This document shows positions 12,974 through 42,198 of a stretch of 44,301 bases of DNA, piece by piece. The notes beneath the pieces are model-generated. The model searched no databases. It worked only from the letters and a program-made list of their open reading frames with translations, and had not been told where the DNA came from. How positions within the stretch are numbered: position 1 is the stretch's first letter; each line of letters starts with the position of its first letter. Source of the stretch: Actinomycetota bacterium (GTDB lineage: Bacteria; Actinomycetota; Acidimicrobiia; Acidimicrobiales; Ilumatobacteraceae); NCBI GenBank assembly GCA_017853685.1, contig JAFMJD010000003.1, positions 1-44,301 of the forward strand. The letters run 5' to 3'. Both the position numbers and the translations under genes were made by a program.

Positions 12974-14476
12974 TCAGAGTCGACCATCGTCGAGCAAATG
13001 CAGCACCTCACGCGCCCGTTCCCGAACGGCCTCGAGGTCGGTGAGTCGCCCCATGGCCCGCACCTGTTGCACCACCCGCGGATTCGAGTCGAAGCGTTCC
13101 CGATGGCGGGCAAGAAAGTCCCAGTACAAGGTGGTGAACGGGCAGGCGTCGGGTCCGACGCGCTTGGTGCGGTCGAACGCGCAGCCGTTGCAGTAATCGC
13201 TCATCTTGTGGATGTACGCGCCGCCGGCCGCGTACGGCTTGGTGGCCATGCGGCCCCCGTCGGCATGCAGTGCCATGCCGAGCACGTTCGGCAGCATCAC
13301 CCATTCGGCGCCGTCGACGAAGCCCTCCCACATCCAGTCGACCAGCGCCTGGGGTGACACACCTGCGAGGAGCGACAGGTTGCCGAGCACCATGAGGCGT
13401 TGGATGTGATGTGTCCATCCGTAGTGCGTCACGTCGCTCAGGGTGTGTTCGACACATCGCATGGCCGTCGACGCTCCGGTGAACACCGGCGGCAGCGGTC
13501 GGTGTGCGCCGAGTTCGTTCGTGGAGCGGTACTCCGGCATCCACGACCAGTAGGTGCCCCACACGTACTCGCGCCAACCGATGATCTGGCGTATCGCTCC
13601 CTCGGCCGATGCGATGGGCACCTCGCCACGGCGGTATGCGGCTTCGATCTCGTCGCACACCTCGCGTGGGTGCAACAGGCCGAGGTTGAGTGCGGGCGAG
13701 AGCAGCGTGTGCGAGAGGTGCCAGTTGGTGGACAGCATCGCGTCCTCGTACGGCCCGAATCCCGGCAGCACGTTCTGCACCGCATGACGCAGTTGGGCAA
13801 GTGCGCGGGCGCGGGTGGTGGGCCACACTCCGGTTGGGTCGTCGCCCCAGATCGGTGCACCCGAGTCCCGTAGCGCATGGAGATCATCGAGTGCTGCGCG
13901 GTCGATGTCATCGAGTTCGTGATGGACCGGCACCGGCCACGGGTGTGGCTTGCGGGGCGGCGGCTTGCGATTGTCGTGATCGAAGTTCCACTGTCCGCCC
14001 GCGGGCTCGTCGCCATCCATGAGGTAGCCCAGTCGCCGGCGCTGCCACCGATAGAAGTCCTCCATGCGCAATCGGTTGCGACCGAGTGCCCAGTCGGCGA
14101 AGTCGCTCGGGTGACACAGGAACTGGTCGGTGGGCACGGTCTCGACGCCCTCGGCACTCAGCATGGCGAGTCCGTCCCACGAGGCGGGCTCTGTTGCCAG
14201 CACCCGGGTGGGTGCGTACTGCGTCCGGTGGCGACCCAGTCCCTCGCGCAGCGACGGCGCTCGTTGGTAGTCAACCTCGAAGCCCTCGGCCCGGAGTTCG
14301 GCAGCGAGGTGACGCATACCGCTCGTCACCAGATGTGCGCGCTGGATGTGCCAGCGACGCGAACGCAACTTGGTTGCACTCTCCACCATGAGGACTCGCG
14401 TGTTGGTGGGTGTGGCGTGCCGGAGAGCGCCGAGGTGGCGGTTCAGTTGGTCGCCGAGCACCCACACCGTGTCCAC
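12974..14476 (-). CDS. Cryptochrome/photolyase family protein, predicted FeS-BCP (prokaryotic 6-4 photolyase-like)
   Basis: WVLGDQLN N-terminus; IGWREYVWGTYW; putative 4Fe-4S ligands MRCVEHTL, DYCNGC, DACPFTTLYWDFL; GTG start with TACGCT 6 nt upstream. Confidence 0.9.
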   Translation of the reverse strand: MDTVWVLGDQLNRHLGALRHATPTNTRVLMVESATKLRSRRWHIQRAHLVTSGMRHLAAELRAEGFEVDYQRAPSLREGLGRHRTQYAPTRVLATEPASWDGLAMLSAEGVETVPTDQFLCHPSDFADWALGRNRLRMEDFYRWQRRRLGYLMDGDEPAGGQWNFDHDNRKPPPRKPHPWPVPVHHELDDIDRAALDDLHALRDSGAPIWGDDPTGVWPTTRARALAQLRHAVQNVLPGFGPYEDAMLSTNWHLSHTLLSPALNLGLLHPREVCDEIEAAYRRGEVPIASAEGAIRQIIGWREYVWGTYWSWMPEYRSTNELGAHRPLPPVFTGASTAMRCVEHTLSDVTHYGWTHHIQRLMVLGNLSLLAGVSPQALVDWMWEGFVDGAEWVMLPNVLGMALHADGGRMATKPYAAGGAYIHKMSDYCNGCAFDRTKRVGPDACPFTTLYWDFLARHRERFDSNPRVVQQVRAMGRLTDLEAVRERAREVLHLLDDGRL

Positions 14477-16591: not shown

Positions 16592-16667
16592 GATGCCTCC
16601 TCGTTTGTGCGCCGACGATGCGCGATGACCTATCGTGGCGCATCGGCCGAGGGAAGGGGAACCCGAG

Positions 16668-17219
16668 ATGTTGATGGACCGTTACACACTGTTCCAGCAG
16701 GCGTACTTCGTGAACGACCTGGACGAAGCGATCCAGGAGTGGGCACGGGTCTATGGGGCCGGTCCGTTCGTGGTGACCAACCACCACAAGTGCGACAAGT
16801 TCATGTACCGCAACACGGCGCAGGAGGCCGACGTCTCCTATGCGTTCGGCTATCTCGGCGACACCATGATCCAGTTCATCGTCCAGCACGACGAGACGCC
16901 GTCGATCTACCGGGACATGTACGCCAAGGGCGAGCAGGGTTACCACCACATGGCCTACCTCGTGAACGATTTCGAGGCCGAGTACCAGCGCCTGATCGAC
17001 ATGGGACTCGTGCCGGCCTGCCGGTTGTACGCCGACGGCGTCGATGCGGCCTACTTCGACACCCGGCACATCAACGGCGGATTCACCGAGATCCACGGCG
17101 ACCCGCCGCACATCCTGGGCGCCTTCGCGCAGTGGCGGCGTGCACACGAGTTGTTCCGCCGTGGCGACGATCCCGTGACCCGTCGGCGCGACGCCAGCCA
17201 GAACGCCGCCGGTCGCTGA
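16668..17219 (+). CDS. VOC (glyoxalase/bleomycin resistance) family protein
   Basis: MLMDRYTLFQQAYFVNDLDEAIQEWARVYGAGPF...GYHHMAYLVNDFEAEYQRL...GGFTEIHGDP; RBS GAAGGGGAA. Confidence 0.85.
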   Translation: MLMDRYTLFQQAYFVNDLDEAIQEWARVYGAGPFVVTNHHKCDKFMYRNTAQEADVSYAFGYLGDTMIQFIVQHDETPSIYRDMYAKGEQGYHHMAYLVNDFEAEYQRLIDMGLVPACRLYADGVDAAYFDTRHINGGFTEIHGDPPHILGAFAQWRRAHELFRRGDDPVTRRRDASQNAAGR

Positions 17220-17486: not shown

Positions 17487-17512
17487 CGCCGCCCGGTTGG
17501 GGCCGGGGTCAG
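17483..17512. terminator. Bulged hairpin between convergent genes
   Basis: CTGAC-(GCCG bulge)-CCCGG-TTGGGG-CCGGG-GTCAG spanning both stop codons. Confidence 0.4.
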
Positions 17513-17796
17513 TGCGCGAGTTCGTCCACCCGGGCACGTGCGGCCGCCGGGTCCTCGAACCACAGGGCATTGATCTCCACCCACGGCCGTGAGGCTGCCG
17601 GGATGTCCTCGGCGGTGAAGATGGCCCCTACGGGGCAGGCGGCGAGGCACAGGTTGCAGCCGATGCACTCCTGTGGGTCGATGTAGCAGACCCGGTCGTC
17701 GTCGGTGTCCTTGATGCAGTCCACGGGGCAGACCTCGACACACGACTTGTCCTTGACGTCGATGCATGGATCGGTGATGACGTACACGGACGGCAT
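17509..17796 (-). CDS. 7Fe-type ferredoxin (FdxA-like)
   Basis: YVITDPCIDVKDKSCVEVCPVDCI ... CIGCNLCLAACPVGAI. Confidence 0.93.
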   Translation of the reverse strand: MPSVYVITDPCIDVKDKSCVEVCPVDCIKDTDDDRVCYIDPQECIGCNLCLAACPVGAIFTAEDIPAASRPWVEINALWFEDPAAARARVDELAH

Positions 17797-17879: not shown

Positions 17880-19337
17880 ATGACGATGACCTGTCCGTTC
17901 CACTCGGTGCTCAACGAGGCGCTCGACCTCGACGGGGCCGGAGTCGCCGCAACAGCCGAACCGGTCGCCAAGAAAGAATTCCCGTTCATGCCCATCGGGC
18001 AGGCCTACGACATGGGCCACGCACCCGACGGCACCCCGTTGTTCGACCCGCGGATCCTCGACTCGGCCGAGTTCGCACGCAACCCGTATCCGTACTACCG
18101 GATCCTGCGTGACCACTATCCCGTGTATCACGACAAGCTGCACAACACGTACTGGATCACGCGGTACGACGACATCACCCGGTGCTATTTCGACGAGGAG
18201 GGTTTCAACACCATCCCGAAGGGATCGTCGTCCGGGGTGCTCGGCAACACCCAGTTGGAACTGTCGGGTGTGGAGCATCGTCGCCGCCGGAACCTGTACG
18301 GCCGGCATCTGGTGGGCCAGGCGCTCGAGAAGCGCATCTATGCCATCGAGCGACTCGCCGACAGCATGATCGAGTCGTGGCTGAGCGACTCGCCGCCCCC
18401 GGGTGTCACGCGCAACGCCGATGGCACCCTCACCATCGAGCTGGGGCTCGCCTTCGCGAACGAGTTCCCGATCCGTGTGGTGTGCCAGGTCCTCGGCATC
18501 CCCGATGAGGTGAAGGACAAGTTCTTCTACTGGTACTACTCGATGATGACGGGTCTGGGCGGTTCGGAGACTGCGCCGAATGGCATCCAGGCGCGCCAGG
18601 ACCTCGAGGACTATGTGTCCGAACTCGTGGAACTGCGTCGCCGCGAGCCGGGCTATCTCTACGACCACGCCGGCAAGGTGGTGGGCAAGGACATCATCAC
18701 CCAGCTGTGCGAGTCGGTGCTCGACGGCGACCATCTCTCCACCGAGGAGATCACCTCCAACATCGCCCTTATCGTGGGCGGCGGGGGCGAGACCACCCGC
18801 GGGGCCATCATGAACATGTGGTACCTGCTGCTGCTCCACCCCGAGCAGTTCGCAGCCGTTTCGGCCGAGGAAACACTGTGGGACACCGCGTTCCACGAGA
18901 CCCTGCGTTGCGCAAGCTCGATCGGTGGCCAGCCCCGTCACAACACCTACGACGTCGAACTGCACGGCGTGACGATCCCTGCCGGCTCGCTGTGCCAGAT
19001 GGTGGACTTCTCCGCCAACCACGACGACCGGATCTTCGCCAACCCCGAGTCATTCGACATCTTCCGTGCGGACCTCTACAGCGGAAAGATCATCCGGAGC
19101 GGGCACCACGAGGGAGGCCGCCACAGCCACATGGCCTTCGGTGTCGGCCCGCACCTCTGCCCCGGAGCATGGATCTCGCACCAGGAAGCCGTGGTGGGCT
19201 CGAAGTTGCTCCGCCGCCGCCTGAAGAAGGTGTCCATCCACACCGACAAGATGCCCAAGGATCTCGATGGCGTGTCGCTGCCGCCCATCGGTCTGGGCGC
19301 CATCCGTGAACTCTGGCTCGACATCGAGTTGGGCTGA
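17880..19337 (+). CDS. Cytochrome P450
   Basis: I-helix VGGGGETT, ExxR (HETLR), heme loop MAFGVGPHLCPGAW. Confidence 0.95.
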   Translation: MTMTCPFHSVLNEALDLDGAGVAATAEPVAKKEFPFMPIGQAYDMGHAPDGTPLFDPRILDSAEFARNPYPYYRILRDHYPVYHDKLHNTYWITRYDDITRCYFDEEGFNTIPKGSSSGVLGNTQLELSGVEHRRRRNLYGRHLVGQALEKRIYAIERLADSMIESWLSDSPPPGVTRNADGTLTIELGLAFANEFPIRVVCQVLGIPDEVKDKFFYWYYSMMTGLGGSETAPNGIQARQDLEDYVSELVELRRREPGYLYDHAGKVVGKDIITQLCESVLDGDHLSTEEITSNIALIVGGGGETTRGAIMNMWYLLLLHPEQFAAVSAEETLWDTAFHETLRCASSIGGQPRHNTYDVELHGVTIPAGSLCQMVDFSANHDDRIFANPESFDIFRADLYSGKIIRSGHHEGGRHSHMAFGVGPHLCPGAWISHQEAVVGSKLLRRRLKKVSIHTDKMPKDLDGVSLPPIGLGAIRELWLDIELG

Positions 19338-19358: not shown

Positions 19359-20684
19359 ATGACTACTACCGATGACCTCGGCAGCAACCTCGAGTTGCCG
19401 CACCTCCCGCACAATGTCCGTGACGGCGCCGGGTTGCGCACGTACGAGATCTACCAACGTCAGCGAGTGCGTGACGCGACGCCGCTCATCAAGCCGCGCC
19501 AGTTGCGATCGCCCGAGTATCTCGTGGACCCGTACCCCGTGGTGGCGATCCTGCGTGAGAACTATCCGTGCTACCGCGACTGGGTCGGCAACTCGTTCTG
19601 GATCACGCAGTACGACGACGTCACCTCGGTGTTCGCCGACGATCTGAACTACGAGACGCGTCCGAAGCTCTGGTACTACGACATGGTGGGCTTCGGCCGG
19701 AACCTCGGTGCGGAGATGCCGGTGCTCTGGAACCGTTCGCACACGTGGCAGCAACAGGCGGAGCCGCTCGCCAACCGGATCGTGGACGAGATCTGTGCGC
19801 TCGGCAGCGCCACCGATCTCGCCACCGAATTCGTGGCCCGCTACGCGCTCGAACTGCTTGCGCTGCGACTCGGTCTCCCGCGCGAAGACTTCAACACCTT
19901 CGTGGAGCGCTACCTCCGCATGCAGCGCGGCTATCTCTGGGAGCCGCGTGCAGCACAGGCCGGACGCAGCGCCATCGCCGAACTGGTGGCGTACTTCCGT
20001 CCTCTGCTGGAGCAGCGCCGGCGGACCCCAGGCGACGATCTGCTCTCGGTCATTGCCGCGCTCGATCTCGACGGTGGTGCGGCCACCGCAGAAGACGTGG
20101 TGGTGACGCTGCTCGAGGAGGACCACCAGACGCTGCACGGGGCCATGGCGAACCTGTGGTACCTGTTGCTCACGCACCCGGATCAGTACTCGCTGCTGCG
20201 CGACGACCGCCGATGGGTGCGCTTCGCGTACCAGGAGACGTTGCGTCACTCCACGCCCGTCATCACGGCGGAGAAGTTCACGTTGCACGAGGTGGAGCGC
20301 TTCGGCCGTGTGCTGCCCGAGGGCGCACTGATGCTGCTGTCGGCGGCAGCCGCCAACCGTGATCCACGCCAGTTCGACGACCCGGACCGCTTCGATGTGC
20401 AGCGTCGGGACATCTGCCAGCGCGAGCCCCGGGGTACGTACCGCGCCGATGGTCTGCCTGCCGGTGTGGCCTTCGGGCCCGGGAGGCCGTCGAACTATCC
20501 GGCCGTGCCCGAGGATCGACCGATGTCGCTGTGGGCGCTCACCCGCGACGCAGTGGTCACCGGATCACGGGTGCTCCTCGACCGCCTGCCCGATCTGCGT
20601 CTTGCGCCGGGTGCCACCCCGGTGCTGCGTTCGCTGCGTTGGGGTGAGATGCACACGTGCTGGAGCCTCCCGGTCGTCTACTGA
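19359..20684 (+). CDS. P450-fold protein lacking the axial heme Cys (Asn at that position); putative pseudoenzyme
   Basis: ExxR retained (YQETLRHS), NLWYLLLTHPDQ helix as in neighbouring P450, but heme loop reads VAFGPGRPSNYPAV and I-helix LLEEDHQTLHGAM. Confidence 0.88.
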   Translation: MTTTDDLGSNLELPHLPHNVRDGAGLRTYEIYQRQRVRDATPLIKPRQLRSPEYLVDPYPVVAILRENYPCYRDWVGNSFWITQYDDVTSVFADDLNYETRPKLWYYDMVGFGRNLGAEMPVLWNRSHTWQQQAEPLANRIVDEICALGSATDLATEFVARYALELLALRLGLPREDFNTFVERYLRMQRGYLWEPRAAQAGRSAIAELVAYFRPLLEQRRRTPGDDLLSVIAALDLDGGAATAEDVVVTLLEEDHQTLHGAMANLWYLLLTHPDQYSLLRDDRRWVRFAYQETLRHSTPVITAEKFTLHEVERFGRVLPEGALMLLSAAAANRDPRQFDDPDRFDVQRRDICQREPRGTYRADGLPAGVAFGPGRPSNYPAVPEDRPMSLWALTRDAVVTGSRVLLDRLPDLRLAPGATPVLRSLRWGEMHTCWSLPVVY

Positions 20685-21745
20685 CGTCGGGTCGAACATT
20701 GCACGTCACTGCAGACGACCGCAGCGGCGCCATGGAGGCTGCTGCCCTGTGTGCCGACGCCGGTTGGGACGCAGTGGTGTGCAGTTGGGATGGCGAGCCG
20801 GTGCCGACGGAGGCGGGTGTCGACGGTGTGGTGGTCACCGACCTGCGCTCGCGCCATGTGTCCGGTGACGCCGCGGTGCTGAGGATGCGTGCGGCAGTTC
20901 GTCGCACGGGACCGGTGCGCGTCCACAAGATCGACTCCACGCTGCGCGGGAACTGGGCCGCCGAACTCGGCGAACTCGCTCAGCAGGGTCCGGTGGTGCT
21001 CATCCCTGCCTATCCGCAGGCGGGGCGCACGTGTGAGGACGGTGTGGTGCTGGTGGACGGCGTTCCGGTTCACCGGGCGGGTTTCGGTGCCGATCTGCGG
21101 TCGGCAACGAAGTCGAGTCGTCCCGCAGAGGTGCTCGATGCGGTGCAGGCGAAAGATGCCGATGGCCTGCGTGGCTGGCTGGGCTCGACGTCATCGGGCA
21201 TCTGTGTGTGCGATGCGCGCACCGATGCCGATATCTCGGCGCTGGTGATTGCGGCGCTGGCCGCCGACGGGGTGGTGCTCGCCGGACCGGCATCGATCGT
21301 GGGCGCGGTGGCCCGTGTGCTGGCGTCGTCGCCCAGCTCGTCGGTACCAACCATCCCGTCGGGGAATGCCGTGGTGGTGTGCGGCAGTCGCCACCCGCGC
21401 AGTGTTGCCCAGGCCGATGCCGTGGAGGGGCGGCACGACGTGGCGGTGATCCGGCCACCCGCTCATCTGCGCGCCCACGCCGAGATTGTTGCGCTCGAAC
21501 TCGCGGGCAGGGCACACGACGCCGTGGCCGAACGTGGGGCATCGCTGGTGGTGCTCCTCGGTGGCGATACCGCCGAGGCATTCATCGGTCAGCGGGTGGT
21601 GCGCGTGCGGGGGAGCGTTGGGGTCGGGATGGCGCTGGGAACCCTGTCGCTCGGTTCCTCGGACATCACGATCGTCACCAAACCCGGTGGATTCGGCGAT
21701 GATCGTGCGGTGAGCGATCTGCTGGACCGACGAGGTGCTCGGTGA
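20657..21745 (+). CDS. Four-carbon acid sugar kinase family protein (DUF1537)
   Basis: LHVTADDRSGAMEAAALCADAG, HKIDSTLRGNWAAEL, VVVLLGGDTAEAF, TIVTKPGGFG; alternative TTG start at 20699. Confidence 0.88.
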   Translation: MLEPPGRLLTSGRTLHVTADDRSGAMEAAALCADAGWDAVVCSWDGEPVPTEAGVDGVVVTDLRSRHVSGDAAVLRMRAAVRRTGPVRVHKIDSTLRGNWAAELGELAQQGPVVLIPAYPQAGRTCEDGVVLVDGVPVHRAGFGADLRSATKSSRPAEVLDAVQAKDADGLRGWLGSTSSGICVCDARTDADISALVIAALAADGVVLAGPASIVGAVARVLASSPSSSVPTIPSGNAVVVCGSRHPRSVAQADAVEGRHDVAVIRPPAHLRAHAEIVALELAGRAHDAVAERGASLVVLLGGDTAEAFIGQRVVRVRGSVGVGMALGTLSLGSSDITIVTKPGGFGDDRAVSDLLDRRGAR

Positions 21746-22680
21746 GTGCCCCCATCGCGATCACCATGGGCGATGCGTCCGGTGTGGGACCCGAGATCGT
21801 CCTGCGACGCTTTGCCGCGGGACTGCTCCCCGACGACGTGGTGGTGTACGGAGATCTTGCGATTCTGCGTCGTGGCGCCGAACTCCTGGGCCTCGATGTG
21901 CAACTCGATCACCTCGATGTGGTGGACCTCGGTGTGCTGCGTGCATCGGACCATCGCCCCGGCGTGATCGACGCGGCCGCCGGTCGCGCGGCCCGCGAGT
22001 ACGTCCTGCGTGCCACCGATGACGCACTCGCCGGCAGGGTTCGCGCGGTGGTCACCATGCCGATGAACAAAGAGGCCACACAGCTGAGCGATCCCGTTTT
22101 TGTGGGTCACACCGAGCTGATCGCTGCGCGCTGCGGGGTTCGCAGCTTCTCGATGATGCTTGTGGCTGGCGACCTCGCAGTGACCCACGTGAGCACCCAC
22201 GTCTCGTTGAGCGAGGCCATCGCCCGGGTCACCACCGATCGTGTGCACGAGGTGATCGCACTCACGCACCGCACCCTGCAACCCTTCCGCCCATCCCCTC
22301 GCATTGCCGTGTGCGGTCTCAATCCGCACGCTGGCGAGCACGGACTTTTCGGCGACGAGGACAGCCGCTTCATCGCTCCCGCAATCGATCGGGCGTGCAA
22401 CGAGGGAATCGACGCATCGGGCCCGCACCCGGCCGACACCGTGTTCCACCAAGCGGTGCACCGGCAGCGCTTCGACGCCATTGTGTGCATGTACCACGAT
22501 CAGGGTCATACCCCGATGAAACTGCTCGCCTTCGAGTCGGGCGTGAACGTCACGATCGGATTGCCCATCGTGCGTACGTCGGTGGACCACGGCACGGCGT
22601 TCGACATTGCGTGGCGTGGCGAGGCATTCACCGAATCGCTCGACCACGCGCTCGACTGGGCGCGCCGCCTCTCGCCCTAG
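21742..22680 (+). CDS. PdxA/PdxA2 family 4-phosphohydroxy acid dehydrogenase
   Basis: PIAITMGDASGVGPEIVLR, VTMPMNKEA, MYHDQGHTPMKLLAFESGVNVTIGLPIVRTSVDHGTAFDIAW; GTGA-type overlap with DUF1537 gene. Confidence 0.92.
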   Translation: MSAPIAITMGDASGVGPEIVLRRFAAGLLPDDVVVYGDLAILRRGAELLGLDVQLDHLDVVDLGVLRASDHRPGVIDAAAGRAAREYVLRATDDALAGRVRAVVTMPMNKEATQLSDPVFVGHTELIAARCGVRSFSMMLVAGDLAVTHVSTHVSLSEAIARVTTDRVHEVIALTHRTLQPFRPSPRIAVCGLNPHAGEHGLFGDEDSRFIAPAIDRACNEGIDASGPHPADTVFHQAVHRQRFDAIVCMYHDQGHTPMKLLAFESGVNVTIGLPIVRTSVDHGTAFDIAWRGEAFTESLDHALDWARRLSP

Positions 22681-29083: not shown

Positions 29084-29156
29084 GACTGGTTTGTACACGA
29101 CTCGGCCCGAGCGACCAAGATGCATCCACGGCGCAGCGATGCAGGGGGATGACGAC

Positions 29157-30344
29157 ATGGGGATCGACTTCGGGTTGGACCTACCGGAACTGCAGACTGA
29201 TCCGGCGGGAACCTTCCGCACGCTGCGTGAGCAGTGCCCGGTGCACCACACGGGCCACCCGGCACCGCACTACACCGTGTCGCGCCATGCCGATGTCACC
29301 GAGGTGCTGCGCGACAGCGATATCTGGAAGAGCAAGTTCGGTCCGGGTCTCGCCATGCGCGGGGGTGGGGTGCTCGTGTCGAGCGATCCCCCCAAGCACA
29401 CCAACGAACGCCTCGCCATCACCAAGGTGTTCCGTCCGTCGGCCATCGACGAGATGCGTGACGACATTGCGGCCCTCGTCGGTCGCATCACCGACCGCTT
29501 CGTGGACCGTGGCGAGGGCGACCTGATCGGTCTGCTCGCCATGCCGATCCCCCTCACCGTGATGTGCTGGTTGCTCGGCACCCCCGAGGAGGACGTGGAG
29601 CAGTTCCGCAACTGGGTGCTGCCGATGGCCGAGGGTGTGTCGTACGCCCAGGGGCGCGCAGCACCCGAGGTGGCAGCGGCCTACGAGAACTTCTTCGCGT
29701 ACTTCACCGCTCATGTCCGCACGCGTCAGGCGGCGCTCGAGTCGGGTTCCGCAGTGCCCGATGACATGCTCACGCGCCTGCTCACCGTGGAGCGCGACGG
29801 ATCGCGCATCTCGTTCGAGGACGTGCTCGGGTTCTGCCAGTTCCTACTCGTGGCGGGCAGCGCAACCACCACACTGCTCATCGGCAACGTGCTGCACCGT
29901 CTGCTCCAGCACCCCGACCAGATGGCACTCGTGCGCGCCGATCGTCGACTCGTGGAGACCGCGGTGGAGGAGAGTCTCCGCATCGACGCACCGGTGCACG
30001 GACTGTTCCGCACGAACGATGCACCGGTGTGCATGCACGGCGTAGACATCCCGATGGACTCCAAGGTGCTGGCGCTGTTCGCATCGGCCAACCTCGATCC
30101 GGAGGTGTGGGACCGACCCGACGAGTTCGATGTCACGCGCGATCTCACCCAGTTGCGCAAGCACTACGCGTTCGGGGTCGGGATCCACTATTGCCTCGGG
30201 GCACCCCTCGCTCGTATGGAGGCACAGCTCGCCGTGAACGAGGTGCTCGACCGCCTGCCGAACCTCACACTGGCCGGCACGCCGACGCTCGTGAAGGCAC
30301 AGGTGCTGAACGGCTTCGAGACCCTGCCGGTGACCTGGGGCTGA
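29157..30344 (+). CDS. Cytochrome P450
   Basis: I-helix LVAGSATTT, ExxR (EESLR), heme loop YAFGVGIHYCLGAPLARMEA. Confidence 0.95.
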   Translation: MGIDFGLDLPELQTDPAGTFRTLREQCPVHHTGHPAPHYTVSRHADVTEVLRDSDIWKSKFGPGLAMRGGGVLVSSDPPKHTNERLAITKVFRPSAIDEMRDDIAALVGRITDRFVDRGEGDLIGLLAMPIPLTVMCWLLGTPEEDVEQFRNWVLPMAEGVSYAQGRAAPEVAAAYENFFAYFTAHVRTRQAALESGSAVPDDMLTRLLTVERDGSRISFEDVLGFCQFLLVAGSATTTLLIGNVLHRLLQHPDQMALVRADRRLVETAVEESLRIDAPVHGLFRTNDAPVCMHGVDIPMDSKVLALFASANLDPEVWDRPDEFDVTRDLTQLRKHYAFGVGIHYCLGAPLARMEAQLAVNEVLDRLPNLTLAGTPTLVKAQVLNGFETLPVTWG

Positions 30345-40953: not shown

Positions 40954-42198
40954 TCACCACGAACACTGCATGTGCTTGATGCCATTGATGAACGCGCTCT
41001 GGAGGTACTCGGGTTCACCGGTGATCTGGAGGTTGGGTAGCCGGCGGCGGATCTCGTCGAACATCACGCCGATCTCGCGTCGGGCGAGGTTTGCCCCGAG
41101 ACAGAAGTGCGGACCACCCGCTCCGAAGCCCACCTGTTTGGTGGTGTCCCGAGCGATGTCGAAGCGATGCGGATCCGGGAACGCCGAATCGTCTCGGTTT
41201 GCCGAGCAGTAGAACATCACGACCTTGTCGCCTGCGTGGAGTTGCCTGCCGCCCACCTCGGTGTCGGCGGTGACCGTGCGGCGGAAGTGGATGACCGGCG
41301 TGGAGTAGCGCACGATCTCCTCCACCGCTCCACGGGTGTGGCGATCGAAGTCCGCGAACCACAGGTCTCGTTGGTCGGGGTGCTGCGTCAGCAGACGCAT
41401 GCCGTGGCTGATGGCGTTGCGTGTGGTCTCGTTGCCGGCCACCACGAGGAGGATGAAGAAGCTGCCGAACTCCTGCGGTGAGAGCCGGTCGCCGTCCACC
41501 TCGGCGTGCATGAGTGCGCTCGTGAGGTCCTCGCGGGGGTGGGCCAAGCGGTCCTCGCCGAGGGTCTGTGCGTACTGGAACATCTCGAGCGAGTCCTGCA
41601 TCAACTTCTCGAACGTGCCGCCGTACTCGGGATCACCGGCTCCGAGAATGGTGTTGGTCCACGCGAAGATCTGCTTCTCGTCCTCGGCGGGGATGCCCAT
41701 CATCTCGCAGATGATTCGCAGTGGGAGGGGAGCGGCCACCTCCTGGACGAAGTCGCACTGTCCGTTCGGGAAACGCTCGAGCAGATCGTCCACGAGCTGC
41801 GCAGCGACGGTCTTCACGTAATCCTCCACCCGTGAGATCTCCTTGGGCGTGAATCCCTTGGACACGATGGAACGGAGTCGGTAGTGCTTCGGGTCGTCCA
41901 TGTTGATCATCGATCCGAAGAACTCGTTGATCTCGGTGGGCAGGTCGCCGATGTTGGATCCGTTGCCGCTGCAGAACAACGCAGGGTTCCGGCTCACGTG
42001 CCAGATGTCGTCGAAGCGGGTGAGTGCGTAGTAGCCGGGTCCCTTCGGAAAGGGGGGAAGCTCGGCTTCCTCGAAGAAGGTGATGGGTGACTTGGTGCGC
42101 AGCGCATGGAATGCGCTCTCCCGGTAGTCACGGGGTGCGAGCCAGAAGTTGACGTCGGAGAGGTTGATCTCCTCCACCGGCACATCGAAGAGTTGCAT
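40954..42198 (-). CDS. Cytochrome P450 (CYP124/125/142-like)
   Basis: I-helix VVAGNETT, ExxR (EEIVR), heme loop VGFGAGGPHFCLGANLARREI. Confidence 0.94.
   Translation of the reverse strand: MQLFDVPVEEINLSDVNFWLAPRDYRESAFHALRTKSPITFFEEAELPPFPKGPGYYALTRFDDIWHVSRNPALFCSGNGSNIGDLPTEINEFFGSMINMDDPKHYRLRSIVSKGFTPKEISRVEDYVKTVAAQLVDDLLERFPNGQCDFVQEVAAPLPLRIICEMMGIPAEDEKQIFAWTNTILGAGDPEYGGTFEKLMQDSLEMFQYAQTLGEDRLAHPREDLTSALMHAEVDGDRLSPQEFGSFFILLVVAGNETTRNAISHGMRLLTQHPDQRDLWFADFDRHTRGAVEEIVRYSTPVIHFRRTVTADTEVGGRQLHAGDKVVMFYCSANRDDSAFPDPHRFDIARDTTKQVGFGAGGPHFCLGANLARREIGVMFDEIRRRLPNLQITGEPEYLQSAFINGIKHMQCSW

Follow-up and report, generated by a model that had tools for sequence, protein, structure and literature searches.

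What does a protein with the fold of a cytochrome P450 do in a bacterium once the axial heme Cys is missing? This question is raised by a 441-residue protein encoded in the window, by which is meant the whole 44,301-nucleotide stretch of DNA that was analysed. A sequence-only reading of the window had described this protein as a Cys-less P450 homologue. Its open reading frame and length, its heme loop VAFGPGRPSNYPAV and the AAC codon at 20493–20495 all read as that description had them, and the heme loops of the other three P450s in the window, read directly, retain the Cys as it had claimed. The features of the locus are collected in Table 1.

Table 1 Positions of the Cys-less gene, its elements and related genes in the window.
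Feature	Position	Strand	Basis or remark
Pseudo-P450 (Cys-less P450-fold protein), 441 aa	19359..20684	+	ORF, Pfam, AlphaFold2, 25 orthologs, dN/dS
Shortened B'-C segment, residues 96-120	19644..19718	+	Lacks the partner's C-helix HxxxR
I-helix motif EEDHQTLHG, residues 253-261	20115..20141	+	Alignments; family consensus E-x-D-H-E-T-L-H-G
Former heme loop, residues 366-392	20454..20534	+	No Cys in 25/25 orthologs; conserved insertion after the loop
N379 (AAC) and Y380 (TAT), the two candidate sites of the missing Cys	20493..20498	+	DNA, alignments
Partner cytochrome P450, 485 aa, heme loop FGVGPHLCPG, I-helix GGGET	17880..19337	+	Cys present; Pfam P450 88 bits
Partner residues 112-133 (IPKGSSSGVLGNTQLELSGVEH), a segment with no Cys-less counterpart	18213..18278	+	Joint alignment of 24 Cys-less and 25 partner sequences
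P450 with heme loop FGVGIHYCLG	29091..30344		Cys present
P450 with heme loop FGAGGPHFCLG	40954..42198	-	Cys present
Small ferredoxin, 94 aa, Fer4	17512..17796	-	Pfam Fer4 37.7 bits; divergent from the pair

The Cys-less protein belongs to the P450 superfamily by both fold and sequence homology. PF00067 was the sole Pfam family matched, weakly, at 27 bits against a cut-off of 22.8. Prediction of the monomer structure, which the sequence-only reading had proposed, gave a P450 fold (AlphaFold2; pLDDT 83, pTM 0.83), and the best PDB match of this model by Foldseek was CYP134A1/CypX (TM 0.76/0.85). The Cys loop was of low confidence in the model; this was set aside as evidence because the loop of the upstream P450, the partner of Table 1, was equally poor in a model of both proteins fused.

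For the comparison of heme-site elements, the Cys-less proteins were first aligned with their partners and next with further Cys-bearing P450s. Cys was absent at both candidate positions in all 25 orthologs covering the heme loop. By spacing from FxxG the missing Cys falls on N379, where orthologs have N, V, K, I, R or T; when the alignment is anchored on the two flanking prolines it falls on Y380, a position occupied by Y, H, F or W. The claim that Asn had replaced Cys therefore stands as to the loss of Cys, while the identity of the replacing residue depends on the alignment, and the Asn noted there is not fixed among homologs, where the site varies and is never Cys. Y380 was considered as a conserved alternative axial ligand and rejected, as F and W also occur. 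Among the proteins compared, an insertion of ~10 residues, PxxRPxSxY, follows the old Cys site in all Cys-less proteins and in none of the Cys-bearing P450s. A further feature, absent from the earlier description, is the loss of a B'-C helix segment: the segment measures 33–35 residues in all Cys-less proteins, compared with at least 44 in every Cys-bearing P450 compared. None of the Cys-less proteins compared retains the C-helix HxxxR, the heme-propionate clamp, whereas the P450s compared have it.

In the I-helix, Gly300 of the partner is replaced by Glu253, Gly302 by Asp255 and Arg307 by His260. Replacement of the AGxET motif, as originally described, thus holds for E253 and D255 in place of glycine, both being retained even in a divergent second copy from genome G029, but not for the acid/alcohol pair, since E-T is kept in nearly all orthologs. 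Q257 is peculiar to the window protein, H256 is D or I in some orthologs, and T258 and H260 are absent from the G029 copy. Judged from the alignments, the two acids in place of two glycines are the real novelty of this helix. An HExxH-like zinc site, suggested by DHETLH in orthologs, was dropped: H256 varies and the window protein reads HQTLH. The K-helix ExxR was correctly reported as retained, E293 and R296 being conserved across the alignments. Two other stretches characterize the Cys-less family, namely a close to invariant meander, QREPRGxYRADGLP, and a conserved N-terminal R-x-YExxQRxRV. Of the elements of a functional heme-thiolate P450, the axial Cys and the C-helix HxxxR are lacking and the K-helix ExxR is present. 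With the B'-C loss, the insertion and the I-helix acids, the loss of Cys is a rebuild rather than one substitution, and the protein is probably free of heme.

The Cys-less protein was found in 21 of the 222 genomes of the window's family that were searched, most genomes being metagenome-assembled (MAGs) and search E-values being per genome. The 25 orthologs comprise those of 20 more genomes of the family and five from outside it, from one Alphaproteobacterial, two Gammaproteobacterial and one Pseudomonadales MAG and from one genome belonging to the order of one of these. Among 395 genomes drawn evenly from the class, the protein occurred solely within the window's family, and no relative was found in the viral contigs and plasmids searched. 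Among close orthologs the dN/dS of the Cys-less gene was 0.03–0.30, and that of the adjacent partner P450 was 0.02–0.19. These values indicate that the Cys-less protein is kept intact by purifying selection, and no internal stops occur in 26 independent assemblies, in agreement with the earlier judgement that this is not a decaying fragment. Close relatives with an intact Cys, or a dN/dS near 1, had been named as observations that would speak against a genuine Cys-less family; none of the 25 orthologs carries the Cys, and the ratios are those given above. Recent mutation, sequencing error and decay were rejected on these two results.

The Cys-less gene lies directly downstream of, and on the same strand as, a partner-clade P450 in all 26 pairs, the junctions being mostly 4-nt start/stop overlaps or abutting. 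These partners share 61–72% identity with the P450 of the window, and their heme loop FGVGPHLCPG does not vary among the orthologs aligned. When the family was searched in reverse, 23 of the 222 genomes contained a P450 of the partner clade, at about 61% identity or above; 21 of these have an adjoining Cys-less gene and the P450s of the other two run off contig ends, so that no informative partner-clade P450 without a Cys-less gene was found among the family genomes. Adjacency is therefore obligate in this clade. Related single P450s (35–39% identity) had no Cys-less neighbour within flanks of up to 1.5 kb. Alpha- and Gammaproteobacterial MAGs likewise carry the two genes together as a unit. 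One carrier is a single-contig 4.8-Mb genome, and the pairing is therefore no assembly artefact. G029 has a second, divergent pair, again with a Cys-less downstream member; this pair lies on L134 (G029:C41) and L139 (G029:C101), the Cys-less gene apparently being split between the two contigs. Distances of the pair members correlate (r = 0.89 over 17 genomes), as expected because any two co-inherited genes show such a correlation.

The Cys-less protein shares 28% identity with its own partner and is homologous to it over almost the full length. Residues 260–270 of the partner (18657–18689) form an 11-residue G-H helix insertion that is absent from the Cys-less proteins and from most other P450s compared, and that is a candidate partner-specific surface of the partner clade. 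The same difference had been considered as an 11-residue deletion in the Cys-less proteins; this was rejected. An AlphaFold2 model of the fused pair, made as an in-frame read-through of both genes from an alignment with paired rows from nine other loci, showed both halves folded (pTM 0.51, shallow alignment).

A maximum-likelihood tree placed all Cys-less proteins in one clade (support 100/99) next to the partner clade, the fork between them being weak (87/35). Both lie inside a well-supported group with two same-genome single P450s and another family-specific P450. A bona fide glycosyltransferase activator included as a control (L144; 474 bits, adjoining an EryCIII-like glycosyltransferase) fell in another P450 clade, and forcing it together with the Cys-less clade was disfavoured (p-AU 0.021, in a tree that has long branches and a single activator). 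Since the tree separates the Cys-less clade from this activator, Cys was lost independently in the two. The simplest history would begin with a CypX/CYP107-like bacterial P450, whose single tandem duplication long ago gave two co-inherited genes; one loss of heme binding would have come next, and then joint inheritance and joint transfer. The upstream copy would have remained an active heme-thiolate P450. Its downstream sister would have lost heme binding together with the Cys, the C-helix propionate clamp and the open I-helix glycines, and would have gained conserved surfaces in the N-terminal stretch, the meander and the heme-loop insertion, the last of which P450 topology would place on the former proximal, redox-partner face.

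The pair alone is conserved everywhere, and the remaining neighbourhood turns over between lineages. A divergent Fer4 ferredoxin adjoins the pair in the window and in about half of the lineages, a short-chain dehydrogenase being common in the rest. Ferredoxin homologs lie beside the pair in L060, L061, L062, L063, L083, L111, L112, L130 and L141 and within 5 kb of it in L140; no relative was found near the pair in L078–L082 or L143. The 94-residue ferredoxin is likely to be the electron donor of the partner P450. Upstream of the pair, a VOC/glyoxalase-family protein (16635–17219, + strand), also nearby in L083 and L142 (76–77%) and L141 (51%), may belong to the same pathway. Straight after the pair (20657–22680, + strand) lie a four-carbon acid sugar kinase-like protein (SBD_N/NBD_C) and a PdxA-family dehydrogenase, genes that are outside the neighbours conserved at other loci, and a deoxyribodipyrimidine photolyase-related protein (PF04244) is encoded at 12974–14476 on the minus strand. 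The genome that includes the window (1–44301) as one of its 234 contigs is 2.8 Mb in size and has about 25 P450 loci. Genes for short-chain dehydrogenases, P450s, acyl-CoA dehydrogenase, AMP-ligase, thiolase, Rieske oxygenase and amidohydrolases are plentiful in the window, a content that suggests lipid or terpenoid breakdown, and the surroundings of the pair look catabolic rather than antibiotic-making.

Because the protein is intact under selection and always follows the same working P450, it is probably a non-catalytic partner and not a dead gene. In our best reading, to which we give a probability of roughly 0.6, it is a duplication-derived, heme-free pseudo-P450 serving as partner subunit of the adjacent P450. 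Such a subunit would be co-translated with the P450 and bind it, and would stabilise it, activate it allosterically, or present its substrate or electron donor. The suggestion made at the outset, that the protein may serve the P450 immediately upstream as a scaffold or regulator, is strongly supported by the genomic pairing, while the role and the contact are proposals. The wider claim is of a hitherto undescribed class of bacterial P450 system in which a catalytic P450 and a duplication-derived, heme-free pseudo-P450 form an obligate heterodimer, and which has spread between phyla as a unit; it is put forward tentatively, at somewhat less than even odds.

Several observations weigh against a partner subunit. 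Adjacency equally fits two enzymes of successive steps, the invariant I-helix acids and His, with the polar pocket that once took the heme, could point to a new active site, and the fused-pair model, at pTM 0.51 and from a shallow alignment, gave no confident interface or relative placement of the halves. The main rival, which we consider unlikely, is a stand-alone, repurposed protein whose old heme cavity would bind a small ligand or catalyse a non-heme step flanking the P450 reaction, using E253, D255, T258, H260 and the Arg-rich meander. The three I-helix replacements and the meander are conserved differently from the partner, as this proposal would have it, and obligate pairing would suit a two-step pathway equally well. 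However, H256 is not invariant, the divergent G029 copy has neither T258 nor H260, the protein matches no known catalytic or metal motif, and consecutive enzymes rarely stay adjacent without exception while other pathway genes turn over. Non-canonical heme binding, through a His or Tyr near position 380 or an I-helix His, would make the protein an unusual hemoprotein such as a heme donor or electron relay. Many orthologs have Y or H at position 380, and ExxR and the overall fold are kept, but F and W at the same position leave no conserved ligand, the HxxxR clamp is missing, and the glycines over the heme became Glu and Asp; this we regard as improbable.

The known Cys-less P450 homologues are the DesVIII/EryCII-type proteins, and the sequence-only reading had offered these glycosyltransferase activators as a precedent. 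That the present protein is an activator of this kind, acting on a glycosyltransferase elsewhere, appears very improbable. The model for these activators, TIGR04515, is its second-best NCBIfam match, and like EryCII it has a P450 fold without the Cys and without the C helix (PMC3391682), but the match scores 90 bits against a cut-off of 343. No glycosyltransferase was found among the conserved neighbours of the pair or the window genes scanned, no match to an EryCIII-like glycosyltransferase (PF06722) was obtained in 5 of 11 carrier genomes, and none ever lay on the contig of the pair. On these results, together with the separate placement of the true activator in the tree, membership in that group was rejected. 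That the gene is a duplicate in decay, or an artefact of sequencing or assembly, is scarcely credible: the first stage of decay would look like a Cys-less second copy, but 26 independent assemblies without internal stops, dN/dS far below 1 and newly conserved motifs all stand against it.

To our knowledge, the free-standing P450-derived pseudoenzymes are servants of glycosyltransferases. The Cys-less family would be new among them in having a P450 as partner, and no description of a paired Cys-less P450 was found in the literature searched, which left out most subscription journals. If the partner reading is true, the exceptionless pairing with an active P450 would mean that P450s can rely on a sister without catalytic activity, much as kinases rely on pseudokinases, and would explain why partner-clade P450s might fail when expressed alone. 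The pair would also be a clean test case: its two genes adjoin, its orthologs are numerous and the residues to mutate are clear.

Among known systems, the partner clade has TIGR04538 as its nearest NCBIfam model and TbtJ1, CypX/CYP134A1 and vitamin D hydroxylase as its nearest solved sequences. The Cys-less protein shares the K-helix ExxR, the I-helix Thr and the overall fold with these P450s and differs from them in lacking the Cys and the C-helix clamp, in its Glu and Asp for I-helix glycines and in its ~10-residue insertion. It resembles DesVIII, EryCII and AknT (TIGR04515) in having a P450 fold from which the heme Cys and the C helix are absent, the latter as in EryCII, which presents a new helix to its glycosyltransferase (PMC3391682), and in a gene that adjoins that of the enzyme served; like them, it would be non-catalytic. 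Unlike these activators, it is partnered with a P450 rather than a glycosyltransferase, falls far below their cut-off and in a different P450 clade, and has its own heme-loop insertion and I-helix acids. The X-domain of glycopeptide NRPSs, which the sequence-only reading had also listed as a Cys-less P450 homologue, is instead a condensation-type domain (PMC9023744), and homology to it was rejected, the Cys-less protein matching PF00067 alone. Unlike this domain, which lies inside an NRPS, the Cys-less protein is a P450 homologue, and no NRPS gene was seen in the window. The X-domain is nevertheless cofactor-free and recruits a P450 whose activity requires it (PMC9023744), a role similar to the one proposed here for the Cys-less protein.
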